Virus record (IMG/VR): IMGVR_UViG_3300025889_000214
Span: 1 to 44,513 of that record
DNA: 44,513 nucleotides
Strand: one strand, 5' to 3'
DNA from: a virus
The notes beneath the pieces are model-generated. The model searched no databases. It had not been told where the DNA came from and saw only the letters and a program-made list of their open reading frames with translations. A program made the translations under genes and the position numbers. Positions 25,599 through 44,513 of this stretch are shown one piece after another (position 1 is the first letter of the stretch; the number at the start of each line of letters is the position of its first letter).

Positions 25599-25982
25599 TT
25601 ATTCTTCTGCTAATCCAATAGAGACAGAGTCCACCAGATCAATCTCTGGAATGGAATATGTAACTTGAACAAAAATCTTATTTCTATCTGTTTCAACTAA
25701 GTCAAAACTAACTTCTTCCAAATCAATATAAGAAAGGTAGCTATTGACTTGCTCTATTATCCTTCCTTCGAAATCTAAAAGCATATCTTTGTCAGAAAAG
25801 TTCTCAAACAACATACCAGAAAGACCAACCCCAAACTCTGGAATCATCACTCTTTCTCCGGGGTTTGTTAACAAAACCATTTTTAGGTTTTGCCTTGCTA
25901 GATCTCTGATTTCTTCAATGTGTTCAAACCCCGGCTGTGTTTTATCAGGCAGTAGCGGTAGTTTTGGAGTGTATTTAGGCAT
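25599..25982 (-). CDS. gp25: Baseplate wedge protein gp25
   Basis: A small conserved subunit that sits at the core of the baseplate wedge and nucleates sheath assembly in contractile tails. The 127-residue length fits the family (T4 gp25 is 132). The family signature is clear: DLARQNLKMVLLTNPGERV near residues 27-45, followed by MIPEFGVGLSGMLFE, corresponding to the conserved TxxGER-x-M-x-P-x-F-G-x-x-L core shared with Mu/P2 gpW-type proteins and type VI TssE. Despite the historical 'lysozyme-like' label, no catalytic function is implied. It overlaps the 1863-residue gene upstream by 8 bases and is followed after 11 bases by the gp6-like gene. Confidence 0.95.
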   Translation of the reverse strand: MPKYTPKLPLLPDKTQPGFEHIEEIRDLARQNLKMVLLTNPGERVMIPEFGVGLSGMLFENFSDKDMLLDFEGRIIEQVNSYLSYIDLEEVSFDLVETDRNKIFVQVTYSIPEIDLVDSVSIGLAEE

Positions 25983-31566: not shown

Positions 31567-32561
31567 TAGTTTGTCCCATTAAATCTTGAAAGTAAGAATG
31601 TCTCTTCTTTCGGATTTGTCCAGATTTGTTCCCAATTGGTTAGGTTATCAACTTGCTGCTCTAACCTTCTTCCTATGCTCTCCATTTGTTTATTCAGCTT
31701 TGATGACAAACCAACAAAAGCCTCGATCGTTATAACGCCGGGAGGCGTAGTTGGAGCGCCCGGAGCGCTTGAAAAGTGAGTGTGATTTGAAACCACCCTA
31801 TTAAATGAAAGTTGATAACTAACAAACTCTTGCAAAAGCCCATTTAATATTAAAACATTCTCATACATTTGATAATAACTTTGAAAAAAGTTCTTGCCTT
31901 TAACAAATGGCTGTACCTCTAAAACACCTTTGTCTGCATTTTGAGCGATCAATTGAATGCCGGCTGGTGTTTTATCACCTTTGTTGTACACACCCGTAAC
32001 CAACTTAATCCCTTCGTCACCAACAATCCGAACCAAATCTGCTTTCACACCGATAGCGGGACGACCTGTAATGCTAGGCGCTGTGTTGAAATTATCAGTT
32101 TTTACTATCCCAAAGTTTTGATCAATGTCTGTCTTTTCTGATATATAAATTCTAGCAGCATCGTACCGAAAGTTGGGATCTGCGAACACTCTTCTTTCAG
32201 GGCCACCGCCTTGTCTGATTGTTGTTTTTGCAAATTGAGATACTCTACCCGCAACAATATCGATTGTAGAAGATTTTTGATGACCTAAGCCTCCATACCC
32301 CGATGTCAACCCAGAAGGTCTATCTTTCCCTATTACTATTGACGCATTGGAGTTCTTACTATCTAATATAATATCCCCATCTGCCTTGATATACTCTGGC
32401 TTTGGGATAAGCATTTGAGAGCCGCCCACGCCTAGCATTCTAGCTTTTCGCAAGCTTGGGTTTAGGTTGTTAATTTCTTTTAACTGATCGGTGCTTAAAG
32501 CATCTTTATCTGTGTTTAATCTTTTTGCACCCTGAGAAGGTTTACTTGCGCTGATTGTCAT
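31566..32561 (-). CDS. Baseplate hub/spike-like protein
   Basis: A 331-residue protein. Residues about 50-190 form short repeated beta strands rich in Gly, Asn and Ile (ADGDIILDSKNSNASIVIG), as in beta-helical or OB/spike proteins. A conserved-looking NHTHFSSAPGAPTTPPG segment is present near residues 266-282; His-rich turns followed by Pro-rich sequence are found in membrane-puncturing spike proteins of contractile phages (gpV/gp45-type). The C-terminal 50 residues are helical (SSKLNKQMESIGRRLEQQVD). It is sandwiched between the NlpC/P60-like hydrolase gene and the 1863-residue gene, as expected of hub components, and starts 2 bases after the preceding stop. Exact equivalence to T4 gp5 or gp27 cannot be established by eye. 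Confidence 0.72.
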   Translation of the reverse strand: MTISASKPSQGAKRLNTDKDALSTDQLKEINNLNPSLRKARMLGVGGSQMLIPKPEYIKADGDIILDSKNSNASIVIGKDRPSGLTSGYGGLGHQKSSTIDIVAGRVSQFAKTTIRQGGGPERRVFADPNFRYDAARIYISEKTDIDQNFGIVKTDNFNTAPSITGRPAIGVKADLVRIVGDEGIKLVTGVYNKGDKTPAGIQLIAQNADKGVLEVQPFVKGKNFFQSYYQMYENVLILNGLLQEFVSYQLSFNRVVSNHTHFSSAPGAPTTPPGVITIEAFVGLSSKLNKQMESIGRRLEQQVDNLTNWEQIWTNPKEETFLLSRFNGTN

Positions 32562-32563
32562 TT

Positions 32564-34036
32564 TTATCTATCCCAAAATCCAAATTGATCTGCCAAAGCA
32601 AATGTGATTGGTATACCAAAAACCACTACGTCTTTTCTGTGTTTTGCTCGTGTCCCTCTCTTGTTTAAAGAGTAAAAAGTTCTTGTTGCTAATTTTGTTT
32701 TATATTGAAAAAACATTGCTTCATATGTTTCTATTTTGTATTTATTTCCTGATTTTTTAAACCCTTTGCCGGCAGACACAGCAACGTGTCCATATTTTCC
32801 ACGACTACTATTTCTAACATAAAAAACACAGGCCCCGGGGGTATATGCAAACTGCTCAATGGTGATATCCAAGCCAAAATTCAATGCATATAAGGTTTGA
32901 GAGTGAGAACCCCTTCCATATTCCCAAGCAACTTTATCATAAGTTTTTGGACTTCTTTTTGCATCATAGCCCCTTAACCCAAGAATAAAACCCAACTCAA
33001 AAGCTAGCCAAGCAGGAATTCCTGAACAATCAAATGTACCATCTTTGAAGACACCGGTTCCATCAGTTGTCATCAAATTGGAATAGTTATTAAAATAACC
33101 ATCTTTTGTAAAACCTTTTCCTGTTGCTTTTAAAATTCCAGCAATATTGTTAGGTTGCTTATATCTTCCGGGGTTTGTGTATTTTTGAACTCCACCAAAC
33201 ATATAAGGATAAAACTTTCCGCCGGCAAATCCAGAGTCCATTATTGATCTGATTTTTTGCTCAAATTGCTTGTCTTTCCAAAGGGATTTGCCTTTCGTGC
33301 TTCTAATCCTGTTTCTCATAGAAATAGCGGCTTCTCTTATCTTCTTGTTGCAAGGTTTGCAGTTGTAATTAAAATGTCTAATTTCACCATCGTAGTTAAA
33401 GATGTAAGAGTTTATCTGACTTCCTTTTATAATAGAGTTTTTTTCACAGTCATCGCTGCTAGTTTTCAAAGAAGATAGCCTTGTTTTTTGCCTAGTCTTT
33501 TGTGCCAGTGCACGAACATCTACCGTTGTACTGAAAGATAAAGCTCCTTGGGCTCCGGGAGGCACACCAGTCCCAACGACAGAGACAACCCTACCCTGAC
33601 TTGGAACGCCTCCAGCAACTGTGTCATACTTTACTTCAACAACATCGCCTTTGTTGAGTGGTGTCTTTGAAGGATTGAAAACATAACTCTGTGAGTCGTT
33701 AAACTCAGAAGAGATCAAAAGAGCAACAATCTTCTCTATCTGATCTTTTGAAAGATCTTTGTTTACTTCGACTTCTAAAGGGTTTCTTTTATTTGCGTGA
33801 ATATCGTGAACATAGACATGATAGTATTCGGTTGCTTCTGCGCCGTCTCCATTGATATCCGGAGCCAACACGATAGCGGAATATCTATTATTTGAAGAAA
33901 TTATACCCTTTGGCCTATAAACTGCCTCTCTGATAAACTTGCGCATTTCAACAAATGCTTGGTTATCATCATAGTAAAGATCGTTAAAACCTAGAGTGTC
34001 AAACTCAGATCCTTTATCATAAAAATCATCAGCCAC
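32564..34036 (-). CDS. Baseplate-associated NlpC/P60-like cell-wall hydrolase
   Basis: Probably opens the peptidoglycan during DNA injection, the job done by the lysozyme domain of gp5 in T4. In 490 residues, the part at about 70-160 has strands resembling an OB/SH3-like domain (NKGDVVEVKYDT, then GRVVSVVG). The C-terminal catalytic half has the papain-like NlpC/P60/CHAP pattern: FDCSGIPAWLA (catalytic Cys337), a YTPGACVFYV element, and KYGHVAVSAGKG (His417), with IETYEA as possible third-residue strand. Cys223/226/229 region (NCKPCNKK) could be structural. The start is GTG at 34036, chosen for the strong AAGGAGG at 34044-34050, 7 bases away. It heads the tail operon and is followed by the spike/hub protein. 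Alternative: an endolysin, but position favours a virion enzyme. Confidence 0.82.
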   Translation of the reverse strand: MADDFYDKGSEFDTLGFNDLYYDDNQAFVEMRKFIREAVYRPKGIISSNNRYSAIVLAPDINGDGAEATEYYHVYVHDIHANKRNPLEVEVNKDLSKDQIEKIVALLISSEFNDSQSYVFNPSKTPLNKGDVVEVKYDTVAGGVPSQGRVVSVVGTGVPPGAQGALSFSTTVDVRALAQKTRQKTRLSSLKTSSDDCEKNSIIKGSQINSYIFNYDGEIRHFNYNCKPCNKKIREAAISMRNRIRSTKGKSLWKDKQFEQKIRSIMDSGFAGGKFYPYMFGGVQKYTNPGRYKQPNNIAGILKATGKGFTKDGYFNNYSNLMTTDGTGVFKDGTFDCSGIPAWLAFELGFILGLRGYDAKRSPKTYDKVAWEYGRGSHSQTLYALNFGLDITIEQFAYTPGACVFYVRNSSRGKYGHVAVSAGKGFKKSGNKYKIETYEAMFFQYKTKLATRTFYSLNKRGTRAKHRKDVVVFGIPITFALADQFGFWDR

Positions 34037-34043
34037 AAAAAGA

Positions 34044-34050
34044 CCTCCTT
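34044..34050 (-). promoter_or_regulatory. Strong ribosome binding site for the GTG-started hydrolase
   Basis: AAGGAGG on the minus strand, 7 bases from the GTG at 34036-34034. It overlaps the stop codon of the preceding small gene and decides the non-ATG start. Confidence 0.8.
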
Positions 34051-34324
34051 ACTTTTCATTTTCCAACATATCATAAAGTTCTTCGGAGGAAAGATCGTCG
34101 CTTTCATGACGAAGCTTTTTTTCTTGGAGTGTCAAAACTTTGATCAATTGCTCATTAGACCTTTGAAGAGCTTCAAAATACTTTGCAACAACCATTCCGG
34201 CACGAGTATGATTTTCTTCGTTCTTTTTCAAATAAACCATTGCATCAACCAAAACAGAGTTGATTGCTGCTCTATCTGTTTTAACGTTGTCTAAGATCTC
34301 TTCTAGCTTTTGATCGTAATCCAT
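34049..34324 (-). CDS. Small helical protein, unknown
   Basis: This 91-residue, highly charged and probably all-helical protein has no Cys and no hydrophobic segment. The central part, AKYFEALQRSNEQLIKVLTL followed by QEKKLRHES, has a heptad-like pattern suggestive of a short coiled coil. It follows the sigma-factor-like gene by a single base and precedes the cell-wall hydrolase gene by 12 bases, with GGAG 9 bases before its ATG. Small helical proteins of this kind occur beside late sigma factor genes in several T4-like phages as I recall, but no function is known to me. It might be a chaperone for the tail hub or a co-regulator; both are guesses from position. Confidence 0.75.
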   Translation of the reverse strand: MDYDQKLEEILDNVKTDRAAINSVLVDAMVYLKKNEENHTRAGMVVAKYFEALQRSNEQLIKVLTLQEKKLRHESDDLSSEELYDMLENEK

Positions 34325-34325
34325 T

Positions 34326-35045
34326 TTAGATTTCTCCGTTATCCCACTTTTGCTTGAATTCTCTATATCTTTTCCTGATCTTCGTTAAACTGGAAGTTAG
34401 TTGTTTTGTGTTCATTCCAGTGATTTCTCGAAGATATAGATAAATAGCTTTCTTATTAAAAATTGGGATTGAATCAATGTCTCGGAAAATAATCTCAATG
34501 GCTTTGATAAGTTTTTCTTCTTGTTCTTTTAGATCCATTTTCTTCCATTCTTGGATTTCATTTCCTAAAAGCATCATAAACTCAGAGTTTTCTCTTTTTT
34601 CGTGGTATTTGTTTTCAACGATCAATTGATCTTTAACTTCATAGATGTCTTCAATAACAATGTGCTTTTTAAGTCTTTTCTTGTGTTTCTTTGTTTCGTG
34701 AATAAACCAGTTTTTAGTGATCACAGAAAAGTAAGAAAAAGCTTTGTGACCCTTTTCAGGTTGAAACTTTTCTAAGATTGTGACTAACCAGACTTTGCAT
34801 TCTTCTCGGAGGGAATCAATATTGGGAAGGCTTGTAAATCGGTAAGTGTAAACAATTTTATCAACCATTTCAGAAAAAACTGGCTTGATATCTTGCTTGT
34901 AAATGCGGCTTCTAACGTTGATATCTTCTGTGCTGTTGTACTTTATAATCTGCTGTTCGTGAAATTTGGTAAAGTACATATTCTCTTTTTTTCTTTTTCT
35001 ACCTCTCTTCTTCGGCTGGTTTTGTTGTTTGTTCGGCTGGGGCAT
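34326..35045 (-). CDS. Probable late-transcription sigma factor (T4 gp55-like)
   Basis: Predicted to direct host RNA polymerase to phage late promoters. The 239-residue protein starts with a Lys/Arg/Gln-rich tail, then carries a sigma-region-2-like helical block: an ECKVWLVTILEKFQPEKGHK segment followed by AFSYFSVITKNWFIHETKKH (about residues 78-120). Both the pattern 'F.P.KG...AFSYF....KN.FI' and its basic end match the DNA- and polymerase-binding core of gp55-type small sigma factors. A C-terminal segment (GMNTKQLTSSLTKIRKRYRE) resembles a short HTH. I chose the ATG at 35045 over the one at 35051, because AAAGG (35056-35052) touches the upstream ATG but is 6 bases from this one. The gene overlaps its upstream neighbour by 47 bases. 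A gp55 role is inferred from motif and phage context. Confidence 0.72.
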   Translation of the reverse strand: MPQPNKQQNQPKKRGRKRKKENMYFTKFHEQQIIKYNSTEDINVRSRIYKQDIKPVFSEMVDKIVYTYRFTSLPNIDSLREECKVWLVTILEKFQPEKGHKAFSYFSVITKNWFIHETKKHKKRLKKHIVIEDIYEVKDQLIVENKYHEKRENSEFMMLLGNEIQEWKKMDLKEQEEKLIKAIEIIFRDIDSIPIFNKKAIYLYLREITGMNTKQLTSSLTKIRKRYREFKQKWDNGEI

Positions 35046-35376
35046 ATTCATCCTTTATGTTTTCCTCTAATTCTTGCAGCAGTTCTTTTTCTTCTTCATA
35101 TTCTTCTTCTTCGTATAAGAGAGAATAAAAGTCTTCAAAGTTTTCTATCTTGTCTTTTAAATGTTTTGTATGTGTTATTAGAGCTTTTAAAGTTTCATCC
35201 CCATAGAACATTTCCATTGAATAAAGAGCTTTAAGGTGTTCTAAGAATTCTAACACCTCTTCTCTTAATTCAGCGACGTTCTCAGCAAAAAAGAAAAGTT
35301 TTCGAAGAAGGGCAACCACATAAAATGTTCCTCCTATAACTAGGAGAGTTAGCAAAGTTGCATAAATAGTTAACAT
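34999..35376 (-). CDS. Single-pass membrane protein with acidic tail
   Basis: A 125-residue protein. Residues 3-26 (IYATLLTLLVIGGTFYVVAL) form a clear N-terminal membrane anchor, followed by basic/aromatic RKLFFF and then a helical, coiled-coil-like region and a highly acidic tail (LLYEEEEYEEEKELLQELEE). The topology would be N-out/C-in or an uncleaved signal anchor. Its ATG directly follows the stop of the zinc-ribbon gene, and its last 47 bases overlap the start of the sigma-factor gene in another frame. The acidic tail could bind basic proteins or nucleic-acid-binding partners at the membrane. No spanin lipobox, holin-like second segment or enzymatic motif is present, so function is unknown. 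Confidence 0.75.
   Translation of the reverse strand: MLTIYATLLTLLVIGGTFYVVALLRKLFFFAENVAELREEVLEFLEHLKALYSMEMFYGDETLKALITHTKHLKDKIENFEDFYSLLYEEEEYEEEKELLQELEENIKDEYAPAEQTTKPAEEER
35052..35056 (-). promoter_or_regulatory. Ribosome binding site deciding the sigma-factor start
   Basis: AAAGG on the minus strand. It abuts the ATG at 35051 but lies 6 bases from the ATG at 35045, so the downstream ATG is the more likely start. It is inside the coding sequence of the membrane-protein gene. Confidence 0.55.
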
Positions 35377-35640
35377 TTATTTTTCCCACTCTTTTTGAAG
35401 ATTTAATTTTTGCTGTTTGATTTCTTCCTTTGTTTCTTCAATGTGTTTTTTCACTAAATCTCCCGGTTTTCTACCTTTTTTGTCTTGAATTTTGATAAAA
35501 TGCCTATGAAAAGAAGGCACTTTTTCTACCTGACACTCTTCTTGTTCGCAATCTGGGTGTCTTTCAAGAGTTTCACTCATTTGATGACGATACTCGAAAA
35601 CAAATCCACAGATCTTGCAACAATAATCGTACTTAGGCAT
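35377..35640 (-). CDS. FmdB-like zinc-ribbon protein
   Basis: An 87-residue protein opening MPKYDYCCKICG, the signature of the FmdB/CxxC zinc-ribbon family (usually M-P-x-Y-x-Y-x-C-x-x-C-G). A second Cys pair near residues 32-37 (DCEQEEC) completes a probable zinc-binding site, with an HPDC element. The remainder is a Lys/Glu-rich helical tail. The family is annotated as regulatory from limited evidence; in phages the role is unclear. I chose the ATG at 35640 because it restores the family N-terminus and has ACGGAAG 6 bases upstream. An in-frame ATG at 35664 has an even stronger GGAGG at 9 bases and would add eight residues (MLEKRKNW), so both starts may be used. It overlaps the upstream gene by 8 bases. 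Confidence 0.8.
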   Translation of the reverse strand: MPKYDYCCKICGFVFEYRHQMSETLERHPDCEQEECQVEKVPSFHRHFIKIQDKKGRKPGDLVKKHIEETKEEIKQQKLNLQKEWEK

Positions 35641-35836
35641 CCAATTCTTCCGTTTTTCCAACATTTGAAAATTCCTCCAAGGTTTTACCTTTTGGAGGAT
35701 TATTAACGATCAAAAGTTCATTTTGATCTAGTTGGAAGTCAAAATCTTGCAAAACTGGGACAATGTCGGATTGTTCCAAGATTGAATTCTGAAGAGCCAG
35801 CATAAGGGCTCCCATAGCTTGTGGTGATAATTTCAT
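35633..35836 (-). CDS. Conserved-looking small phage protein, unknown
   Basis: This 67-residue protein begins MKLSPQAMGALMLALQNSIL and includes DIVPVLQDFDF and an NPPKGK turn. I recall very similar small proteins in many marine T4-like phages, but with no known function. It has a hydrophobic N-terminal helix and an acidic middle, and is too short for a recognisable domain. A clear AAAGGAGAAATAAA ribosome binding site precedes the ATG. It is the first gene after the sugar cassette, following a 44-base AT-rich gap, and it overlaps the zinc-ribbon gene by 8 bases. It therefore appears to head the small block that leads into the sigma factor and tail genes. Confidence 0.78.
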   Translation of the reverse strand: MKLSPQAMGALMLALQNSILEQSDIVPVLQDFDFQLDQNELLIVNNPPKGKTLEEFSNVGKTEELDA

Positions 35837-35880
35837 TTTATTTCTCCTTTATATTCAAATTTAAAATATATAAAAACATT

Positions 35881-37017
35881 TTACCTTATAATTCTCCCAT
35901 TCAAGCTTGAAGGTAAAATTCTGAATTCTCTTAGGTGGGCCCTGAATAGTCTCTCTGGGTAAAAGCAATTAATTTTATGGTATAAACTATTCAGCCAAAT
36001 TGGTACAAGATAAAATTTTCCATATTTTGGGAGCCTCAAGCCCATTGTGGAAATTAATTCTTGATTTTGTTTTCTCATGTTGTCATAGAGTTTTATACAA
36101 TTTTCATACAAACTAGCGTAATGATTCATATTTTTTGAACTTCCGTATGCAAACACATCACAAACATCACAAACATGATCTCCGGAGTGCTCTCCATCGA
36201 CACACAAATAACAGGAAGGGTGACCATGGTTAGAACATTCGTGATTTGGAACGTATATAACCTTCTTTTCTAAATTGTTCAATAAGTACGTAATATCCTC
36301 AAGGGGGATTGAATTGCTCAATGAATAATCCATTCTAATTTTAATAACTAAATCATATTCAAAACCCATTTTCATTTCATACTCTTTTTTCAACTCATTG
36401 CTTTGATAAATTGAAAACAATTGAGACATTACATACTTGGGCTCTGCTGAACCTAAAAACCCAACTTCTTCACTTCCATGCCCAACTGCATAAAGAAAAA
36501 AATCTTCCTCACCCTGTTCAAAATTGTTCAAAAATTTTGAGTTATTTTCTAGAATATAGGATTTTGGGCTAAAATATTCAACCAATTCTTTTTCAGAAAT
36601 TTTAGAACCATCATGTTTAGGCTTCGGCCCTACAGTTCTGGGTGAAACCTCCTCTTGAAACCCCATGTCGTCCCAAGTGTGTATGAAGAGATCTGCCTTA
36701 AATCTTTTTATTAAGTTCTCTAAAATTGTAGGAAAAGTTTTCTTATAATTACGAAGGTGGCCAGAGATGCAGACTGCCGTTTTGACACTGTGGGTTAAAG
36801 GTTGTTCCTGTGTTTTCATCAAAACATCAAATTTAGGATTTGAATCTTCCCGCAACCTATTAAAAAACTCCTCAGACTCCAAAAACTCTTGTTTTTTTTG
36901 TTCTCTTGTTTTATGCTTTGAGTCTATATGTGACTTATGATATTCCAACTCTTCCCGAGATGGTTGTCTATTCAACAAGTATTTGAAAATATTTAACAAA
37001 AATTGTTCATTATTCAC
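35881..37017 (-). CDS. Glycosyltransferase-like protein with DUF4214-like N-terminus
   Basis: A 378-residue product. Residues about 4-40 (FLLNIFKYLLNRQPSREELE) look like a DUF4214-type repeat, a helical module common in surface-polysaccharide proteins. From about residue 80 comes the GT-like core: AVCISGHLRNYKKTFPT, then ADLFIHTWDD, and KIRMDYS near 226-232 as a possible nucleotide-sugar metal site, then FAYGSSKNM. An unusual Cys/His-rich insert (about residues 259-286) contains five Cys and several His. Probably transfers a sugar in the glycan pathway encoded around it, acting in the cytoplasm. I chose GTG at 37017: GGAGG at 37026-37030 is 8 bases away, whereas it abuts the GTG at 37026. The 8-base overlap with the preceding gene also fits local style. 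Confidence 0.72.
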   Translation of the reverse strand: MNNEQFLLNIFKYLLNRQPSREELEYHKSHIDSKHKTREQKKQEFLESEEFFNRLREDSNPKFDVLMKTQEQPLTHSVKTAVCISGHLRNYKKTFPTILENLIKRFKADLFIHTWDDMGFQEEVSPRTVGPKPKHDGSKISEKELVEYFSPKSYILENNSKFLNNFEQGEEDFFLYAVGHGSEEVGFLGSAEPKYVMSQLFSIYQSNELKKEYEMKMGFEYDLVIKIRMDYSLSNSIPLEDITYLLNNLEKKVIYVPNHECSNHGHPSCYLCVDGEHSGDHVCDVCDVFAYGSSKNMNHYASLYENCIKLYDNMRKQNQELISTMGLRLPKYGKFYLVPIWLNSLYHKINCFYPERLFRAHLREFRILPSSLNGRIIR

Positions 37018-37828
37018 TTTTTCCACCTCCGATTAAGCCCCTAATGAAACATATAGATGATAGTATCTTCTCATATGAACAGCCTTTCATCTCAATTGAC
37101 AAAAACCCACTGTAGCAATCCTCCTTCAGTTGATCAACTATTTTATTATACTTGAGCGTTTCTCCACTGGTAACTGGCTCTAAAAATGGCGCGCTTAAAT
37201 GGATTCTGTCAATCTGATGGATGTCCTTGCACTTGTAATAAACATCTTCAAATCTTTCACCAGAAAGTTCTATACAAGCCGAATCTATATGTGGAACTAT
37301 GTTATTTCTATTGATTTTTCGCAATAAAGAAATATTTTGAGAAAAATTTGTAATAAAATTACAACCATAATGCTTTGGGTTTGCTTCAATTCCAATTACT
37401 ATGTTAAGACCCTCTTTGTATAAGAAGTTTGAAACTTTTTTTATAAAATTTATAAATTTCAACTCTGCCTCTGCACTTGTCATACCAACTGGCACTCTTC
37501 TACAGCGTGGTGAGCCAAAAACTAAATATTCACAATTGAGCCTTGCTGCTATTTGAAAAATTGTCTTCAAATGTTCAAAAACATCTTCCTCGTTGAGGAA
37601 TATATTAAGACTAGTGTTGTAAAACAAGCTTTGCATCGAAATAATTTTTATGCCTTTTTCACTTGCTTTGTTCATGAAGTTATCAACCAAAGAAAAATCT
37701 ACATTTTTAATTGATGGCACTATCTTTGTTGGAGCTACCTCTACAAAACTAACACCATTCTCCGAACACATGTTCAAAAACAACTCTTGTTTCCCACTCC
37801 AGCAAATATTTGATAAACATAAATTCAT
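37010..37828 (-). CDS. Xylose isomerase-like TIM-barrel sugar isomerase/epimerase
   Basis: Predicted metal-dependent sugar or sugar-phosphate isomerase/epimerase. The 272-residue length is typical of the AP-endonuclease/xylose-isomerase-like barrel family. Metal ligands are in the order and spacing expected: Glu148 in VIGIEANPKH, Asp182 in PHIDSAC, His210 in RIHLSAP and Glu246 in LSIEMKG. These correspond to the Glu/Asp/His/Glu set of D-tagatose 3-epimerase-type enzymes. The start is ATG, overlapping the preceding stop by 4 bases, so it is translationally coupled to the SDR gene. Together with the SDR and FAD oxidoreductase genes it probably makes or modifies a sugar used by the nearby glycosyltransferases. 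The substrate cannot be read from sequence. An endonuclease IV function is unlikely because that family needs more metal ligands. Confidence 0.82.
   Translation of the reverse strand: MNLCLSNICWSGKQELFLNMCSENGVSFVEVAPTKIVPSIKNVDFSLVDNFMNKASEKGIKIISMQSLFYNTSLNIFLNEEDVFEHLKTIFQIAARLNCEYLVFGSPRCRRVPVGMTSAEAELKFINFIKKVSNFLYKEGLNIVIGIEANPKHYGCNFITNFSQNISLLRKINRNNIVPHIDSACIELSGERFEDVYYKCKDIHQIDRIHLSAPFLEPVTSGETLKYNKIVDQLKEDCYSGFLSIEMKGCSYEKILSSICFIRGLIGGGKSE
37026..37030 (-). promoter_or_regulatory. Ribosome binding site deciding the GTG start at 37017
   Basis: GGAGG on the minus strand, 8 bases from the GTG at 37017-37015 but overlapping the in-frame GTG at 37026-37024. It supports the shorter protein. 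Confidence 0.6.
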
Positions 37829-38613
37829 TTTAACACACCTATGTCAGTCTGTTGTGAAAGAAATTGTTTAAATTGATTTTTAAACTTTTCATCCCCACTG
37901 ATATACCCATCGCATCTTCCAAATATTTTAGAATATTTTGTTTTGACGTTGTATGATAACTTGTTTCCGAAAAAGCATTTATCTTTCTTTTGTGGGAAAT
38001 AGGTTTTAACAATCTTCTCAGTTAAAATTGGTTTCGGAGCAAAGTTGAACTTCTCAACACCACTGGCCTCTAGAATACTCAGGTCAAAAGATAAATTTGA
38101 AACATCATACCATTGAAATCTAGAATTAAGGTTGATCTTTTGTAAATTGTTATCATTTAATAGATCAAAAATATAGTTTTTTTTCAGACCTTCCCCATAC
38201 AGTGCAGGGAGCCTAACTACGAGATGTTTTTCAAACAATTGTTCAACTGTTTTTTCTATTTTTGCCCTATTTCTTCCATATGTATCATTAGCAGACCCCA
38301 AGCAAGAATCTTCGTCAACATGATTAGGATCGCTGTAGACATCAATTGTGGATAGTAAAATAAACTTGTCTGTTTTCACCTTTCTAATCACATCAATTAG
38401 TCTAGTTACATGCTTATCGTCTTCTAAGGGGAACTTATTCGCTTTCCATTTGACTGCACTTGGGGCAGCGCAATAAACTTTTTCGAATTCCTCTTCTACT
38501 ATATCATCAATGTTTTTCGTGTTGTATTTAAATTTAAAATCAATCTGTTGGCATAGATTTGTACCAACAAAGCCTGTATGTCCTATTATAGCTATTTTTC
38601 CCTGTTGTTTCAT
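37825..38613 (-). CDS. Extended SDR family epimerase/dehydratase-like reductase, YxxxR variant
   Basis: Predicted NAD(P)-dependent nucleotide-sugar epimerase, dehydratase or reductase. The Rossmann dinucleotide-binding motif GHTGFVG is at residues 11-17 and a strand ending LLSTIDVY at about 86-93 carries the usual Ser/Thr. The catalytic Tyr is in DTYGRNRAKIE (Tyr112), but the position that is normally Lys (YxxxK) is Arg116; Lys118 is two residues further. VVRLPALYGEG near 132-142 matches the conserved R-x-x-x-x-Y-G-P-like element. At 262 residues it is short for an extended SDR (usually 300-350), mainly in the C-terminal substrate domain. Its ATG follows the stop of the FAD oxidoreductase gene directly. 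Either an Arg-tolerant active enzyme or an altered-activity homologue. Confidence 0.8.
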   Translation of the reverse strand: MKQQGKIAIIGHTGFVGTNLCQQIDFKFKYNTKNIDDIVEEEFEKVYCAAPSAVKWKANKFPLEDDKHVTRLIDVIRKVKTDKFILLSTIDVYSDPNHVDEDSCLGSANDTYGRNRAKIEKTVEQLFEKHLVVRLPALYGEGLKKNYIFDLLNDNNLQKINLNSRFQWYDVSNLSFDLSILEASGVEKFNFAPKPILTEKIVKTYFPQKKDKCFFGNKLSYNVKTKYSKIFGRCDGYISGDEKFKNQFKQFLSQQTDIGVLK

Positions 38614-39660
38614 TTATTTAATAAAGTTCCTTATCTCAATGGCAATATCGGTTACTGCGCTTATTTTTCCGGCGATAACAGTTATATCATTTTTATTCAT
38701 GATACAATAAGAACCTCTATAAGCTCCCACGTCTTCTAAAATTTTACACTTTTGACTAACTCGACACCCAACTAGTTCATAATTTTTTAATTTAATATGT
38801 TTTTTTGATTCTTTAATTATTTTGAGAGATATAGTTTCTATATCTCTCTCAGTTAAATCTTTCTGTATCTTGTATAAGAACTTACTATCATAAGACTTAA
38901 AAAATGGGGTGTATAGAACGTTTGATATGCTAAAAATATCTTTTTTACTCGTACCATACAGGGAACAAAAATTTCCGTCCATAATTGTTATACTTTTATT
39001 AAAAAATTCTTGTTCAAACACTTTAATAAGCGGAACAAAACACAATTCATGTTTAACTTTTAAACATGAATTGCCTCTTTCTAGTAGGATTTCAGGATTA
39101 GTATAGGTACAATTTATCACAAAATTAAATTCAAGGTTCAATTTAGACTTATCAAGTATCTCTGTGTTTGTGTGAATTTTTATATTACTTCTTTGATATA
39201 TTGTTTTTTTTATTATATTTTTTAACTTTTTGAGATTAATTTTTTTTTCTTTTGTTTTTAATATTCCTTCAATATTACTTGGGTTAGCAAATAAATTGCT
39301 ATATTCTTCTACACTCTCTTCAGAGAATTCTAATCCATGTTCTCTCATTTTTAAGACATAATCAGAATAATTTATGAGACTATCTTTGTGAATTACATAG
39401 AGATTATGTGGCACATCCTCTATCGCGTCTTCGAACTCTGTTACAAACTTTGAAAAACAATCTCGTGATTGTTTAATTGTGAAATCACACCGTGGATAAT
39501 GAAATCCCTTGTGCAGACGCTGTTGATTGTTTGATATAGCTTCTTGTAGAATATCTTCGTTTTTTTCATAAACATGCACCTCGTCTGCAACATCTGAAAG
39601 GAATATAGACAAGTAACACCCATAAAAACCACCACCAATAATTGCTATTTTATTATTCAA
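38614..39660 (-). CDS. FAD-dependent oxidoreductase (DAO/glycine oxidase-like)
   Basis: Predicted flavoprotein oxidoreductase of 348 residues. The N-terminal FAD-binding fingerprint is IAIIGGGFYGCYLSIFLS at residues 5-22, followed by a VHVYEK strand end (Glu binding ribose). NQQRLHKGFHYPRC near 45-58 resembles the R-x-H-x-G-Y segment of DAO-family enzymes. The FVINCTYTNPE segment is the typical second FAD contact, and the C-terminus has a GAYRGSY element. No substrate is evident; with the neighbouring genes, oxidation of a sugar or amino-sugar is possible. The start is TTG at 39660: no ATG is available before the GGG motif, and an AGGA lies 10 bases upstream. The gene is very AT-rich (only 7 G/C in 39181-39240) and contains two perfect hairpins. 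Confidence 0.78.
   Translation of the reverse strand: MNNKIAIIGGGFYGCYLSIFLSDVADEVHVYEKNEDILQEAISNNQQRLHKGFHYPRCDFTIKQSRDCFSKFVTEFEDAIEDVPHNLYVIHKDSLINYSDYVLKMREHGLEFSEESVEEYSNLFANPSNIEGILKTKEKKINLKKLKNIIKKTIYQRSNIKIHTNTEILDKSKLNLEFNFVINCTYTNPEILLERGNSCLKVKHELCFVPLIKVFEQEFFNKSITIMDGNFCSLYGTSKKDIFSISNVLYTPFFKSYDSKFLYKIQKDLTERDIETISLKIIKESKKHIKLKNYELVGCRVSQKCKILEDVGAYRGSYCIMNKNDITVIAGKISAVTDIAIEIRNFIK
38824..38848 (-). repeat. Perfect 10-bp hairpin inside the FAD oxidoreductase gene
   Basis: Arms 38824-38833 (GAGAGATATA) and 38839-38848 (TATATCTCTC) pair perfectly around a 5-base loop. Neither side is followed by a T-run in the direction of transcription, so it is not a standard terminator. 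It lies in codons for a DIETIS segment. Confidence 0.7.
39043..39073 (-). repeat. Perfect 14-bp hairpin inside the FAD oxidoreductase gene
   Basis: Arms 39043-39056 (CAATTCATGTTTAA) and 39060-39073 (TTAAACATGAATTG) are perfectly complementary with a 3-base loop. On the minus-strand transcript the stem is followed by UGUUUUGUU, a weak U-rich stretch. It could act as an attenuator or mRNA-stability element, but it is within coding sequence. Confidence 0.75.
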
Positions 39661-39678
39661 AAATTTATGTTCCTATGT

Positions 39679-40353
39679 TTATTTATAAAGCTTTTTAATG
39701 TCTTCTAAAAAATTAATTTCCAAGTATTTCTTGTACTGTATGCCGTCTTCCAACATAAGGCTATCTACTCGTTCGTATTGTTTGTCTAGTTTAGACTTTC
39801 CTAAAGAATGATGCATATGTTCTATCAAAACATCGCTAAAATACTTGAGACACCCTAATTTGTTACCTAGTTCAAGCCAAAAATTATCAGCATACATGTG
39901 CTTTAAACAAGGTGGTGCAAAATATCCTAGCTTCTTAATTGTTTTAGAGGTTATAAAAACAGACGTTGGTAGGTGATTGTTTGGATTACCATCATCCCCA
40001 AAGCATATACTGTTGTCCATTCCTCTTGCCTGATCCAAAAATTTCTCTTCCCATCCGGGCGTTCTAAAGCGATGGTCATCCCCCATAAAAAAGAAATATT
40101 TATAATCATCAACATATTTCATTGATAGCAAATTAATCTTTGGGACGAGGTTTAAATTTTGGTTAATATCATAAATAACATCACTGTATCTAGGTTGGTA
40201 ATAGTGATGATCATCTTCATCCAAACCCAAGAGAACATCAGAGGCTCCAGAAGTTGTAACTTTCCAAGATTCAATTAAATCTTTTATGCTCCTATTCCTA
40301 ATACCCCCGGAAGATCTGGAAGGAATTATAATTAATATTTCTTTCTTACTCAT
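39679..40353 (-). CDS. GT-A glycosyltransferase-like protein
   Basis: Probably a small inverting/retaining sugar transferase. In 224 residues it has LLGLDEDDHH near 41-50 and FFMGDDHRFRTPGWE near 88-102, the latter being the nucleotide-sugar/metal-binding DxD-type motif in the usual place at the end of a strand. The C-terminal CLKHMYADNFWLELG and LIEHMHHSLGKS contain the Asp/Glu and His residues that in such enzymes help catalysis and metal binding. I recall this compact form, with GDDHR, in marine phages and surface-polysaccharide loci. Its ATG overlaps the stop of the upstream bidomain glycosyltransferase by 8 bases. Its stop codon coincides with a TATAAATA box for the next gene. The acceptor is unknown. 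Confidence 0.75.
   Translation of the reverse strand: MSKKEILIIIPSRSSGGIRNRSIKDLIESWKVTTSGASDVLLGLDEDDHHYYQPRYSDVIYDINQNLNLVPKINLLSMKYVDDYKYFFFMGDDHRFRTPGWEEKFLDQARGMDNSICFGDDGNPNNHLPTSVFITSKTIKKLGYFAPPCLKHMYADNFWLELGNKLGCLKYFSDVLIEHMHHSLGKSKLDKQYERVDSLMLEDGIQYKKYLEINFLEDIKKLYK
39680..39687 (-). promoter_or_regulatory. Candidate T4-like late promoter TATAAATA
   Basis: Exact TATAAATA on the minus strand, the consensus late box recognised by T4 gp55 with polymerase. It overlaps the stop of the glycosyltransferase gene and lies 19 bases before the TTG start of the FAD oxidoreductase. The predicted start near 39674 would put the AGGA at the very 5' end, so the match may be chance in AT-rich DNA. 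Confidence 0.35.
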
Positions 40354-42352
40354 CTTGATTTAAACCCTCTAGTAAAAAATTATAATCATTATCTTTCTCT
40401 CTGAATAGGAATATAGACATGCCCTCTTTTAATATATCTTTTTTAATTGTTAGTTTATTCATGCCGTTGTCGTATTCAGTATATGAATCGTCATTGTGCC
40501 AAACTGTTGCTGACGAGTTAAAGTTTAATAGATATTTTTTTAATTTTAGATCAAAGCTATATCTCACGTCCTCCGGAATTCCCTCTGTAGGGCGATCGGC
40601 ATGGACCAAGCACTCCTCGTCCCACTTAACACTTTCGAAAACATCTTTCCTAACAAGAAAAAACCCACTAGTTTGATAAATTTCTGAATCATAAACGCTG
40701 TGATCATAATCGACTAAGCGGTGTGGGTTTAAGGTAGCTCTATCCCAACACCTAGTGCCATCAGGCGATAGAAGCTTATTCCCTAAAACATCCCAACTAT
40801 TTTTATCATTATAACTTAAAAAATCATTCAGCCATCCCCGACCAAGTAAAATATCATCATCACACCAAGCAATAACATCAAAAACAGACGCTTTCCCGGC
40901 TTCATTTCTAAGCAGGGCGACCTTCCTAGAGTGGGCCTCTTCTGTTTTGTCAATAAGGGTGATACCATCAATATCTTTAAACGGCTCAATATCACCGCAC
41001 ATTACAATTTCATGAGGAAACTCTTTCATCTCGTTTTTAATTGACTTAATAGTCAATAGAGTTTTTTCGACTCTTTTTCCGTTGGTTGGAATACAGAAGG
41101 AAATGCCTTCAACTTTTTGTGGCTTTTTCGAAACATTCTTAAAAAGAGAGTCCGCCAAATAATTCAACCTTTTGTCCTCTTCAAACTCTTTCAGAAGCCA
41201 TTTTCTTAGTCTTTTCGCCTTAGCATGATAAATGCCATACATTTTCACGACATCTCGCAACCTTGAAACATAAGAAAACCTTTTTGGGAAAGCCCAAAGA
41301 GAGTCCCTAATCAAAACAGGCTCCCAAACAGCCTCTTCTTGCACCGGCTTTAGATCATAGTCAACCTTCAAGAAGTGAGCTTTTTTCTTTCCTTTGTCGT
41401 CTGGGGCGTAAAGAAAATCAACCACACCGCCCCAATCAGGGGCGATCACTGGAAGTCCATAATAGGCCGCTTCAAAAACCGGAAGACCAAAACCTTCACC
41501 ATGAGCCAAGTTAATAAAGCATTTAACTTTTTGATGTTGGTAAAGTGCTGAAAGTTCTTCTTCGGTCATATCTCCGTGAAGATAATAAACAGAGCATTCT
41601 CGGTCTTCAAAGTCTTTGAGAATGTGATTGATTCTTTGCTCAAACTTTTCTCGATCCATCACACAGTTTTTGGCAAAGTTTCCTTTTAGAATCAAACCGT
41701 AAGGCTTGTCTTGAAACTCTTCAAGCCACCAGCGAACAGTATTTTCCAAGTTCTTTCTTGGAGACCATTGCGCATTGCAAAGAAAGTTGAAATCGTGCTT
41801 GAAATCAAGTTCCAAAAACTCCGGACAAGGAGTAGCTTTACGAACAGGGTAGTGTGTCACTTCCACAGGAGTTTCATTTCTAAAAACAATCTCTTGTCCA
41901 GTTTGTGGATGTTGAAACTTGTATACAGTGTTGTCAAAAGCATATTTTGTATGCTCTGAAACGACCAGAATCTTATCCATTAGATTGCTTTTCTCAACCC
42001 ATTGTGGGGACATTTTAGTTGTTTCAGTGCCGGCTGTGCATCCAATATTGACAGCAGCTAGCTTCTCCCATTCTTGCGGGATGGTAACTTGAAGCGAAAC
42101 ATCAAAATGAACATGTTGTCCTGCTTTCTTGGCACCTTCAAGCATCAAAACAGTTTTCTTAATGGCCTCGTCAATATATTGCCTTTCTTCATTGTTTTCC
42201 CAAATCCAGCCGGTATCACCCCAGCGAATATTCAAGATATAAATGTCGAAAAGCTCTTCCTTGCTTCGCAGAGCACGAAGAACAAAGCGAGCGTGTTCTC
42301 CATATCCAGATCGGCTCAACATTGGAGCTTTAATCAAAACTTTCTTTTTCAT
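40346..42352 (-). CDS. Two-domain glycosyltransferase (GT4 + GT2)
   Basis: The 668-residue protein joins two transferases. The N-terminal part (about 1-400) is GT-B/GT4-like: KAPMLSRSGYGEHARFVLRA at the start, NAQWSPRKNLENTVRWWLEE near 193-212, and the donor-binding E-x7-E motif in HGEGFGLPVFEA near 284-295. The C-terminal part (about 416-668) is a GT-A/GT2-like domain: ISFCIPTNGKRVEKTL at 417-432 and AWCDDDILLGRGW near 495-507 with the DDD metal motif. It probably adds two successive sugars. The start ATG at 42352 is chosen because it overlaps the preceding stop as TAATG with AAAGAGG 7 bases upstream; an in-frame ATG 24 bases earlier lies in the previous gene. Codon composition is GC-richer in the first domain than in the second. 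Confidence 0.85.
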   Translation of the reverse strand: MKKKVLIKAPMLSRSGYGEHARFVLRALRSKEELFDIYILNIRWGDTGWIWENNEERQYIDEAIKKTVLMLEGAKKAGQHVHFDVSLQVTIPQEWEKLAAVNIGCTAGTETTKMSPQWVEKSNLMDKILVVSEHTKYAFDNTVYKFQHPQTGQEIVFRNETPVEVTHYPVRKATPCPEFLELDFKHDFNFLCNAQWSPRKNLENTVRWWLEEFQDKPYGLILKGNFAKNCVMDREKFEQRINHILKDFEDRECSVYYLHGDMTEEELSALYQHQKVKCFINLAHGEGFGLPVFEAAYYGLPVIAPDWGGVVDFLYAPDDKGKKKAHFLKVDYDLKPVQEEAVWEPVLIRDSLWAFPKRFSYVSRLRDVVKMYGIYHAKAKRLRKWLLKEFEEDKRLNYLADSLFKNVSKKPQKVEGISFCIPTNGKRVEKTLLTIKSIKNEMKEFPHEIVMCGDIEPFKDIDGITLIDKTEEAHSRKVALLRNEAGKASVFDVIAWCDDDILLGRGWLNDFLSYNDKNSWDVLGNKLLSPDGTRCWDRATLNPHRLVDYDHSVYDSEIYQTSGFFLVRKDVFESVKWDEECLVHADRPTEGIPEDVRYSFDLKLKKYLLNFNSSATVWHNDDSYTEYDNGMNKLTIKKDILKEGMSIFLFREKDNDYNFLLEGLNQDE

Positions 42353-43632
42353 TAAATAACCTCTTTCAAAACCCAAGTTTTATGATTTTTTCTATTTTCC
42401 CAAGAGCCGTGCTTTTCAACTGTTTTGTCAATCAGATCAACCCACGTTTCACAGAACTTTTCGTAGTTGTAGTTTTCTTGAACGTGTTCCATTCCCATTT
42501 GAGACATTGCTTCAAATTCAGGATCTTTGTTTTTCCAAAGCTGATACATATCATCCAAAGCATTGACAATATCTTCTTGATTTAGTCGATCTTCGTAAAT
42601 AAAAGGAACCGGCTGTGAGCCAATAACCGACTTCGAACAGGGAAACAAGCCAATTCCAAACCAATCTGCACCGTTTGTCACTTGCTCTTGAAGTCCGCCG
42701 GTCATATTCACAATGATTGGCGTTCCACAAGAAAGAGATTCCAAAGTAGCCAATCCAAATCCTTCTGCATCTGAAATGTTCACTGTGCAATCAACTGCAT
42801 TGTACACTTTTCCAAGAGTTGGAATGTCCAACTTTGTTGTTGAGAAGATTACTTCCCCGTTGATAAGTCCCAGTTCGTGAATGATTGCTTCAAGATCTTG
42901 ACCGTGTGGGTCTTTTGGCTCAGTGTGCATCATCAGGATTGCTTTATCATGGCCTACTTTATCCAAGAATTCTTTAAAACACCAAAGAAGATATCCAGAT
43001 TGTTTTCTTCTAGCGTTTCTGTTGTTCCAGAAAAAGACCATTTTTTCATTTCCTTCTTTATCAAGAAGGTTATCTTTGAAGATCTTTTTTCTGTGTTCTT
43101 TGATTTCAGCCTCTGGGAGCTTTTTGAAAGCTGTAGAATCTACTGCGTGTGGAATGTAATGACATTCAACATCAGAAAGAGTCCTTACAATATCGTCTGT
43201 GACCTTTGAAATCGTAGCAACAACATCATTTGAATCATAATACTTCTTATTGTATTTTGGATAAGGGTAGTTGTCCCAGACGTGGTAGTAAACCATCGGC
43301 ATAAGTGGTCTGATTTCGTTTTCAATTTCCCACAACCAACCATAAAACCTAGGATCTGTCATAAACCAAAGAAGATCAGGTTTTTCATTTCTGATGATCG
43401 ATCTAATTGAATCTTGATCTCCATATCCATCAACAGGATAAATAATAAGATCTTCTCCCCATTCTTCTGTTTTTTGAGGAGTATAGTTGTCGTGTTTAAT
43501 AGCTCCTGCTAAAGATCTGATCTCATATCTACCAGTCTTAAGAAGAGCTTCAATAACATATTTTGTTTGAGTTCCTACTCCAGAAGGAGAATAAGGATGA
43601 TCAGAAATGGTTAAGATCTTTGTTTTCTTCAT
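42352..43632 (-). CDS. Glycosyltransferase family 4
   Basis: A retaining GT-B glycosyltransferase of 426 residues. The N-terminus ILTISDHPYSPSGVGTQTKY (about 6-25) with its Gly-rich SGVGTQ loop, and the C-terminal donor motif DAEGFGLATLESLSCGTP near 288-304, with Glu290 and Glu298 as E-x7-E, are clear GT4 features. RNARRKQSGYLLW near 205-217 is the usual phosphate-binding Arg/Lys segment. Closely similar ISDHP...SGVGTQ proteins are, to my recollection, frequent in marine T4-like phages. Substrates unknown; it may decorate virion proteins, modified DNA bases or host surface glycans. It is the first gene of the leftward series and its ATG has AAGG 7 bases upstream. It ends by overlapping the two-domain transferase start by one base. 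Confidence 0.87.
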   Translation of the reverse strand: MKKTKILTISDHPYSPSGVGTQTKYVIEALLKTGRYEIRSLAGAIKHDNYTPQKTEEWGEDLIIYPVDGYGDQDSIRSIIRNEKPDLLWFMTDPRFYGWLWEIENEIRPLMPMVYYHVWDNYPYPKYNKKYYDSNDVVATISKVTDDIVRTLSDVECHYIPHAVDSTAFKKLPEAEIKEHRKKIFKDNLLDKEGNEKMVFFWNNRNARRKQSGYLLWCFKEFLDKVGHDKAILMMHTEPKDPHGQDLEAIIHELGLINGEVIFSTTKLDIPTLGKVYNAVDCTVNISDAEGFGLATLESLSCGTPIIVNMTGGLQEQVTNGADWFGIGLFPCSKSVIGSQPVPFIYEDRLNQEDIVNALDDMYQLWKNKDPEFEAMSQMGMEHVQENYNYEKFCETWVDLIDKTVEKHGSWENRKNHKTWVLKEVI

Positions 43633-43655
43633 ATTAAAACCTTATTTGAAATATT

Positions 43656-43663
43656 AATTTATA
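43656..43663 (-). promoter_or_regulatory. Candidate late promoter box TATAAATT
   Basis: TATAAATT on the minus strand, 23 bases before the first glycosyltransferase ATG. It differs from T4's TATAAATA at the last base. If used, transcription would start near 43650 and keep the AAGG Shine-Dalgarno. It lies downstream of the sigma-70-like promoter at 43699-43727, so the leftward genes could be read both early and late. Confidence 0.35.
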
Positions 43664-43677
43664 GCTTAAAAAGAATA
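43663..43677 (+). repeat. 15-bp direct repeat, copy 1
   Basis: AGCTTAAAAAGAATA, identical to 43797-43811 and in the same orientation, 134 bp apart. This copy is in the leader of the leftward transcript. Possible operator. Confidence 0.7.
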
Positions 43678-43686
43678 TTTTTTAAA

Positions 43687-43696
43687 TTCTTAAGAA
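43687..43696. promoter_or_regulatory. TTCTTAAGAA palindrome at predicted leftward start site
   Basis: A perfect 10-bp palindrome spanning the predicted leftward transcription start near 43692. A dimeric regulator binding here would block that promoter; no regulator is proven. In such AT-rich DNA a 10-bp palindrome could be chance. Confidence 0.35.
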
Positions 43697-43698
43697 AG

Positions 43699-43727
43699 AT
43701 TATAACATACATTTTTATATTTTTTAA
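43699..43727 (-). promoter_or_regulatory. Sigma-70-like leftward promoter for the glycosyltransferase genes
   Basis: On the minus strand TTAAAA (43727-43722), 17-base spacer, TATAAT (43704-43699), with TG two bases further upstream (ATGTTATAAT). The layout is the same as the promoter before ruvC. The 193-base region 43633-43825 holds this promoter, the rightward promoter, the direct repeats and a palindrome, and no gene. Confidence 0.65.
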
Positions 43728-43761
43728 CCTAATTTGAAAAATAATTTAATTTATTTTTTTA

Positions 43762-43790
43762 TTGAAATAATAAGATCTTTATGTTATACT
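43762..43790 (+). promoter_or_regulatory. Sigma-70-like rightward promoter
   Basis: TTGAAA (43762-43767), 17-base spacer, TATACT (43785-43790), each matching consensus at five of six positions, preceded by a very AT-rich UP-like stretch. Predicted start near 43797, leaving a 29-base leader with AAAGGAAA before the ATG at 43826. It also rules out the in-frame ATG at 43781, which lies between the two boxes. Confidence 0.8.
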
Positions 43791-43796
43791 GTTTAA

Positions 43797-43811
43797 AGCT
43801 TAAAAAGAATA
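43797..43811 (+). repeat. 15-bp direct repeat, copy 2
   Basis: AGCTTAAAAAGAATA, identical to 43663-43677. It begins at the predicted rightward transcription start, a typical place for a repressor site. Confidence 0.7.
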
Positions 43812-43825
43812 AAGGAAATATCATT

Positions 43826-44182
43826 ATGGATTACTGGGAAGATTTTAAAAAACTTAAGTCAAAAAGTCCTTATAAGTCTTATTCTATCATAAATGAATTA
43901 AAAAATCAAGGAAAAATAGATAATAATTTTCTTTCTAAGATAGATCAAATAACATTAGAAGATCTTATAGCAATAAAGTTGGAGTCAGCTACAAAAGCAG
44001 CAGGAGGAAAGTTGTATGGTATGAGAATTTTCTACAATATTGATAGAATAATAAAGGAATCTGTACTGAAAACAGCCATTTCAGCCGGAAAAGACCTAAG
44101 AAATGCAGCTTCTTTCTTAGGTATACCACCAGATAGGCTTGGAGAACTTTTAGGTAAATTCAATTTAAAACAAGGAAAGTGA
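43826..44182 (+). CDS. Small protein with Fis-like HTH C-terminus, probable regulator
   Basis: The only plus-strand gene, 118 residues. The C-terminal AASFLGIPPDRLGELLGKFN (about residues 92-111) matches the A-x-x-L-G-I-x-x-x-x-L-x-x-x-L-x-x-F pattern of Fis/NtrC-type HTH domains; the turn has Pro-Pro where Ser/Thr-Arg is common. The middle (TLEDLIAIKLESATKAAGGKLYG, in two parts, about 46-70) is helical. The start is the ATG at 43826 with AAAGGAAA upstream; the longer in-frame start at 43781 is inside the promoter. It has its own sigma-70-like promoter, so it is probably expressed early. It may regulate the divergent control region that it borders, but that is inference. It ends directly against the stop of the converging protease gene. 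Short proteins of this style are, as I recall, widespread in marine phages. Confidence 0.75.
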   Translation: MDYWEDFKKLKSKSPYKSYSIINELKNQGKIDNNFLSKIDQITLEDLIAIKLESATKAAGGKLYGMRIFYNIDRIIKESVLKTAISAGKDLRNAASFLGIPPDRLGELLGKFNLKQGK

Positions 44183-44513
44183 TTATTTGTACATAGCAGA
44201 ACGAATAGCAGAAAGAGGCACACCAAAGCTGATATGATGAAATTTTCTATGTACAGAAGAAACAATACCGATCACCTCTCCACATTTATTTAAAATTGGA
44301 GATCCAGAAGAGCCACCAATCACTGGGATTGTATAAACCGCCATCAAAGACTTATATCCTTTGATAGGTATTATCTTTTTACCCAGATAACGACCTTCAT
44401 ATAACCCTAGAACGTTCCCTGAGAAGAAACCTAGGGGTGAGGCTGTATTATAAACTTTCTCGCCTTTTTGGGGCATTTCCGTGGCGATCCTGTAAGTTGG
44501 AAGATCTTTCACT
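44183..44513 (-). CDS. Trypsin-like serine protease, 5' part outside window
   Basis: The C-terminal 110 residues of a trypsin/HtrA-like peptidase. PVIGGSSGSPILNKCGEVIG (residues about 62-81 of the visible part) carries the catalytic Ser of a G-x-S-G-S/G-P motif, followed by IGIVSS and HHISFGVPLSAI, the usual last strands of this fold (substrate-binding region). The catalytic His and Asp would lie upstream, beyond the window. The frame is open to the edge; a GTG at 44512 is unlikely to be the real start because it would remove the His/Asp half. It converges with the HTH gene, their stop codons being adjacent with no spacer. Possible roles are processing of virion proteins or attack on host proteins; neither is shown by sequence. 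Confidence 0.85.
   Translation of the reverse strand, partial: VKDLPTYRIATEMPQKGEKVYNTASPLGFFSGNVLGLYEGRYLGKKIIPIKGYKSLMAVYTIPVIGGSSGSPILNKCGEVIGIVSSVHRKFHHISFGVPLSAIRSAMYK

Follow-up and report, generated by a model that had tools for sequence, protein, structure and literature searches.

A five-gene sugar cassette as one allele of a hypervariable, putative glycan island in a lineage of T4-like myoviruses

Introduction

Clusters of polysaccharide genes have been known in T4-like phages since at least 2010, including the lipopolysaccharide (LPS) gene clusters of the cyanophages P-SSM2, S-SM2 and S-SSM7, and it was left open whether they are functional or mere stuffer DNA (PMC3037559). Hypervariable islands that contain glycosyltransferases and form a host recognition cluster have been reported in pelagimyophages (PMC7029224), and glycosylation of mycobacteriophage virions is among the findings cited in PMC12619734. 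Here, we examined a cassette of five sugar-related genes in the IMG/VR virus record IMGVR_UViG_3300025889_000214, a 44,513-base piece of a T4-like myovirus genome that includes baseplate genes (the whole stretch is called the window below). Comparison with related records shows that the cassette is not a one-off insertion: the whole lineage has a hypervariable island at this place, of which the cassette represents one allele. We give about even weight to the reading that this is a glycan island whose allele in the window provides an unusual sugar, most likely attached to the virion proteins of the phage itself. The locus differs from these published systems in its fixed edges, allelic replacement of the whole content, lack of export genes and a compact module.

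Boundaries of the island

Relatives of the GT4 glycosyltransferase gene that flanks the cassette were encoded in 487 viral stretches, and 80 of these loci were retrieved (relatives are numbered with G). The island and its flanks in the window are as follows.

35851..41181, minus strand: exchanged island unit, 5.3 kb, between codon ~398 of the gene 40346-42376 and the ribosome-binding site of 35633-35836 (blastn endpoints)
42352..43632, minus strand: GT4 glycosyltransferase, 426 aa, conserved flank (PF13692/PF00534 above cut-off)
41182..42376, minus strand: GT4 domain at the N-terminus of the 676-aa product of 40346-42376, conserved flank, kept in relatives
40346..41181, minus strand: C-terminal GT2-like domain of the same 676-aa gene, ~278 residues, exchanged
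35633..35836, minus strand: small protein of 67 aa, conserved right flank, with the right edge of the island at its ribosome-binding site
34326..35051, minus strand: late sigma factor-like protein, conserved right flank (weak PHROG 234 match, E 0.0035)

In the retrieved loci, conservation extended over the GT4 gene and ~400 codons into the gene after it, beyond which similarity was lost. The edges proved to be sharp: blastn alignments of the window with G001 (97.7% identity), G002 (99.0%) and G003, G004 and G005 (90.5%) all stopped at window position ~41179-41181, and homology with G003 and G005 restarted at ~35850, where the gene for the 67-aa protein has its ribosome-binding site. Between these near-identical flanks, G003 and G005 carried a 10.4-kb gene set wholly different from that of the window, although the first protein to the right of the island was 99% identical and the GT4 proteins on the left were 96-97% identical. 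The closest relatives thus share 90-99% identical DNA in the flanks, yet the island content is wholly replaced. Both flanks (the GT4 side and the late sigma-like gene) were present in 32 of the 38 records examined. An earlier note, made from the sequence of the window alone, had placed a cassette, suggested to be horizontally acquired, between conserved glycosyltransferases and the tail operon. The slot is real, but the exchanged unit is larger than the five genes (~35851-41181) and cuts into one of the flanking glycosyltransferases.

The left edge falls inside the 676-aa gene, and similarity to its full-length relatives stops at residues ~374-427. The C-terminal domain beyond this point had a weak Glycos_transf_2 match (E 0.0087, under the cut-off) and no homologue in any relative island. 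In most relatives the gene stops ~30 codons past the breakpoint, and in G017, G026, G030 and G035 it continues in frame into unrelated extensions of 268-310 codons. By this comparison, the gene in the window has the appearance of a fusion formed at the recombination edge. An IMG/VR metagenome contig with enzymes that also exist together in bacteria might be suspected of chimeric assembly, that is, of a bacterial locus joined to a phage. However, both flanks match one phage lineage, the gene remains in frame through the breakpoint, similar in-frame extensions occur in the four relatives just named and the DAO oxidoreductase of the cassette groups with phage sequences. We regard such an artifact as scarcely credible.

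Gene content of the slot in relatives

The intervening stretch measured 5.0-22.7 kb among relatives (in G017 up to the sigma gene) and, in each of the 32 relatives with both flanks, held sugar-nucleotide enzymes and glycosyltransferases unrelated to those of the window. Pfam families tallied over 192 proteins of relative islands included NAD-dependent epimerases, GDP-mannose dehydratases, GT2 and GT4 glycosyltransferases, DegT aminotransferases, NeuB, UDP-sugar dehydrogenases, cytidylyltransferases, methyltransferases, PfkB and radical SAM proteins. Neither the DAO gene of the window nor its TIM-barrel gene in full length could be detected in any relative island (tblastn at E 1e-4, and profiles over whole records); the partial exceptions were one weak partial TIM-barrel match in G013 and an SDR protein at 37% identity in G030. 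The five genes are thus not shared by close relatives, and the condition under which the earlier note would have given up a recent cassette fails. For those islands that were retrieved whole, coding coverage did not really improve when TAG was read as glutamine. It should be noted that the homologue of the sigma-like gene 34326-35051 contains two in-frame TAG codons in G017, G018, G019, G020, G034 and G036 and one in G013, so that some members of the lineage may recode stop codons.

None of the 457 island open reading frames (ORFs), those of the window included, had two or more hydrophobic segments in a simple Kyte-Doolittle scan, and multi-pass membrane proteins were thus not detected. By the identical measure, 51 of 58 bacterial loci containing a DAO homologue had an ORF with at least six such segments. 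Nor was a flippase, polymerase or ABC transporter found in any island, as would mark a Wzx/Wzy-type O-antigen locus. By their gene families, the islands appear able to make and transfer sugars and to lack the capacity for export or polymerization. These observations bear on the possibility that the cassette remodels host surface glycans (the LPS O-chain) during infection and so blocks co-infecting phages. The islands draw on the same gene families as O-antigen loci, bacterial homologues of the DAO, SDR and TIM-barrel genes are accompanied in their loci by membrane transport-type genes, and remodeling of host glycans is what the authors of PMC7029224 favored for the pelagimyophage islands. On the other hand, the islands would have to rely totally on the export machinery of the host, and each swap would have to suit the acceptor of each host; we consider this explanation unlikely, although worth keeping in mind.

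Base composition and codon use

All five ORFs were confirmed at 35881-40353 on the minus strand, consecutive or overlapping, as had been described; two GT4 glycosyltransferase genes precede them, and the downstream baseplate genes lie on the same strand. The earlier note had relied on AT-richness, and its hand counts (7 G/C in 39181-39240 against 33 in 41401-41460) were reproduced exactly. However, these stretches are extremes: within genes, 60-base stretches with 7 or fewer G/C occurred only at 39171 onward. The GC content of the whole span was 0.321 (rank 21 among 801 equal-sized windows, the lowest 3%), with most of the dip due to the DAO gene (0.284), and one tail-operon gene (25975-31566) is almost as AT-rich (0.339). 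GC content by itself is therefore weak evidence for a cassette, and we rejected it as the main evidence. Codon use, a check that had been proposed, was more telling: the distance of the cassette was 0.232, against 0.133 ± 0.016 with a maximum of 0.167 for 101 equal-sized blocks from the rest of the window. Gene content and codon use are strong evidence, whereas composition alone is weak.

An Rfam search of 30000-44513 found no RNA. Other genes near the locus include a minus-strand ORF with a trypsin-like GSSGSP motif that is cut by the window end (44183-44512) and a 490-aa protein with a DCSG motif and no PHROG match (32564-34036), which, from its motif, is possibly an NlpC/P60-type hydrolase.

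Families and folds of the five proteins

The five proteins of the cassette were assigned as follows.

39679..40353, minus strand: GT-A type glycosyltransferase, 224 aa (PHROG 14945, glycosyltransferase, at 1.9e-39)
38614..39660, minus strand: FAD-dependent oxidoreductase (DAO) with a predicted glycine/sarcosine oxidase fold (AlphaFold2 and Foldseek), TTG start
37825..38613, minus strand: extended SDR, NAD(P)-dependent epimerase/reductase, RmlD-like (PF01370, 39.6 bits against a cut-off of 20.9)
37010..37828, minus strand: xylose-isomerase-like TIM barrel of ketose 3-epimerase type (PF01261, 48.8 bits against a cut-off of 31.1)
35881..37026, minus strand: DUF4214 domain plus putative glycosyltransferase domain (DUF4214, 28.3 bits against a cut-off of 23.2; phrog_13607 at 1.9e-21)

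The family guesses of the earlier note largely stood. The TIM-barrel, SDR and DUF4214 proteins exceeded Pfam cut-offs and the GT-A protein was supported by PHROG; only the DAO protein fell below (PF01266, 24.4 bits against 27.9). Its AlphaFold2 model (pLDDT 89) matched glycine oxidase best in Foldseek (TMq 0.74, E 1e-14), and this predicted fold supports a DAO identity, the profile score being below threshold; an H-x-G-x-H-Y-P-R motif was invariant. All profile matches stayed within sugar and oxidoreductase families, and the refuting condition that the earlier note set for the pathway idea, matches to unrelated families, fails as well. The GT-A protein had no Pfam match and no solved structural relative was found for it, and GDDH and MYADNFW motifs were conserved among its homologues.

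For the TIM barrel, the predicted Glu/Asp/His/Glu metal set could be verified, as E148, D182, H210 and E246 were invariant in 22 aligned sequences. Its model (AlphaFold2 pLDDT 94) had a TM of ~0.8 to ketose 3-epimerases, and there was a weaker profile match to 3-keto-D-glucoside 4-epimerase. An assignment as the 5-keto-L-gluconate epimerase IolO was rejected (32.2 bits against an NCBIfam equivalog cut-off of 300). The SDR protein has the glycine-rich motif GxTGFVG, but in place of the catalytic YxxxK it has Y112-x-x-x-R116, invariant in all 20 aligned bacterial and phage sequences; judging from this alignment, arginine in place of the catalytic lysine is a trait of a subfamily found in both bacteria and phages. 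The DUF4214 protein also had a DUF7796 match below cut-off. Its structural relatives covered only the N-terminal part (residues ~1-60) and were phycobilisome linker-type chains (profile match), suggesting a protein-docking domain on a putative transferase.

Recurrence of the five-gene module

Viral contigs gave no match when scanned with the DAO and TIM-barrel proteins as single sequences; profile scans later succeeded. All five genes were adjacent in two other phage contigs, L205 (371,675 bases) and L302; the identities of L205 to the window were 48% (GT-A), 36% (DAO), 36% (SDR), 31% (TIM barrel) and 31% (DUF4214). A third contig, L239, which also carries a terminase and a tail sheath, had four of the five genes directly after two GT4 genes. 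In L205, neither terminase nor tail sheath was found, and a primase-type zinc domain lies nearby. No match to a GT4 gene was found beside the module in either L205 or L302, and the five genes therefore appear self-sufficient. Among viral sequences, the GT-A and DUF4214 proteins have their closest homologues in the same contigs, and in the DAO tree the window grouped with exactly L302 and L205 (listed there as L295; support 0.985) inside a mostly viral clade. An IMP dehydrogenase gene was also observed near glycosyltransferase genes in two unrelated phages (L205, 8848-9909; Microcystis phage Mel-JY01, 82271-83368).

A scan of bacterial genomes with the DAO profile yielded 80 loci (81 including MT839812). 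DAO, SDR and TIM-barrel genes occurred together in 37 of the 81, and the gene order of the window was seen in an Acetobacteraceae locus (L125). Because the five genes co-occur in phages and the trio recurs in bacteria, they appear to form a coherent mobile pathway, and the idea of a shared sugar pathway put forward in the earlier note is strongly supported. Among deposited records described as phage, the trio occurred only in MT839812.1 (667-2385), a fecal scaffold labeled 'Bacteriophage sp.' in GenBank; it is probably bacterial, its SDR and TIM-barrel proteins being 70-75% identical to those of Gemmiger and Subdoligranulum loci (L144, L157, L163 and L193). No description of the five-gene module was found in the literature searched, which covered few subscription journals.

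Sullivan et al. (PMC3037559) stated for the cyanophage LPS clusters that function and stuffer could not be told apart, and the island might likewise be non-functional stuffer DNA exchanged neutrally. However, the ORFs are intact and tightly packed, catalytic residues are conserved across phages at 30-48% protein identity and the same five genes repeatedly co-occur, which points to purifying selection and makes neutral exchange very improbable.

Proposed pathway and its acceptor

Two conserved GT4 genes (the second up to codon ~398) fix one edge of the island and a conserved block of small genes with the late sigma-like gene fixes the other, and everything in between is swapped wholesale, as we propose by recombination. 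The FAD oxidase, the metal-dependent TIM-barrel 3-epimerase and the NAD(P) SDR would turn a hydroxyl group of a sugar into a ketone, invert the carbon next to it and reduce the ketone; this order of chemistry and the nature of the sugar are what we infer from the enzyme families. The GT-A and DUF4214-linked transferases would then link this sugar to an acceptor in the cytoplasm, with virion proteins as the most likely one, and the outcome might be an exchangeable surface serotype for the phage, with variability itself possibly under selection. The fuller version, in which the lineage has its own serotype locus and a mobile module of flavin oxidation, 3-epimerization and reduction supplies a sugar that coats the virion, is plausible but somewhat less likely than not to be right in all its parts.

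Transfer in the cytoplasm without export favors virion proteins or DNA as acceptor. The glycan might serve as a hypermodification that protects the bases of phage DNA from restriction: diverse glycans are reportedly added to DNA by phage glycosyltransferases (Pyle et al., 2024, as cited in PMC12619734), restriction drives diversification and a further match of the GT-A protein is PHROG 2675, which bears the name DNA methyltransferase. However, PF00303 (dCMP hydroxymethylase/thymidylate synthase) was absent from all 15 lineage records, including five of ~155-171 kb, and the same search found it in other large viral contigs. T4-type DNA glucosylation with hydroxymethylcytosine synthesis was rejected on this ground, although a base might be modified by another route. 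In addition, islands of up to 22.7 kb exceed the needs of known DNA-glucosylation sets. A DNA acceptor thus seems rather improbable, and a virion protein is preferred because PF00303 is absent and the cassette shares its strand with the baseplate genes.

Several points weigh against virion decoration by this pathway. Cytoplasmic assembly would fit DNA as the acceptor as well. The YxxxR motif makes a redox or reductase role of the SDR protein uncertain, the DAO and TIM-barrel proteins share only 10-20% identity with solved enzymes and the relatives are mostly fragmentary records. The T4 late promoter motif TATAAATA occurred 4 times against 2.55 expected, which is not above chance and lends no support to co-expression with virion genes.

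Comparison with known systems

Like the host recognition cluster of pelagimyophages, the island is a large hypervariable glycosyltransferase region at a fixed position in T4-like myoviruses. However, that cluster lies between VrlC and gp14 together with tail fibers, whereas the edges of the island described here are the GT4 pair and the late-sigma block, and no tail-fiber family was among the top 25 Pfam families listed for two sets of island proteins. The cyanophage LPS clusters are also polysaccharide gene clusters of T4-like phages whose function is not known; they lie near hli03 or phoH and tRNAs, and PMC3037559 does not describe them as allelic replacements at a common site. Metaviromic islands (PMC3909814) similarly vary between otherwise near-identical phages, but they often hold receptor-binding genes and preserve size and gene number, whereas the islands of this lineage vary several-fold in content and size.

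Among cultured phages, Flavobacterium phage vB_FspM_immuto (NC_055915, 49172-59988) has a locus of the same type, with two GT4-type genes followed by GT2, aminotransferase, methyltransferase and epimerase genes; it differs in that its GT4-like gene is only ~30% identical, its annotation lacks the DAO-SDR-TIM set and its right flank is different. Microcystis phage Mel-JY01 has a glycosyltransferase locus of similar style. A lineage-wide slot with base-sharp edges and a minimal five-gene module that recurs intact in unrelated phages offer a small testable unit. Finally, bacterial O-antigen and capsule loci share with the island conserved flanks, exchangeable sugar genes and the DAO-SDR-TIM trio, and differ from the phage islands, which have no membrane proteins for export or polymerization. 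By analogy with these exchangeable bacterial surface-sugar loci, our results suggest a phage family that keeps changing a sugar coat.

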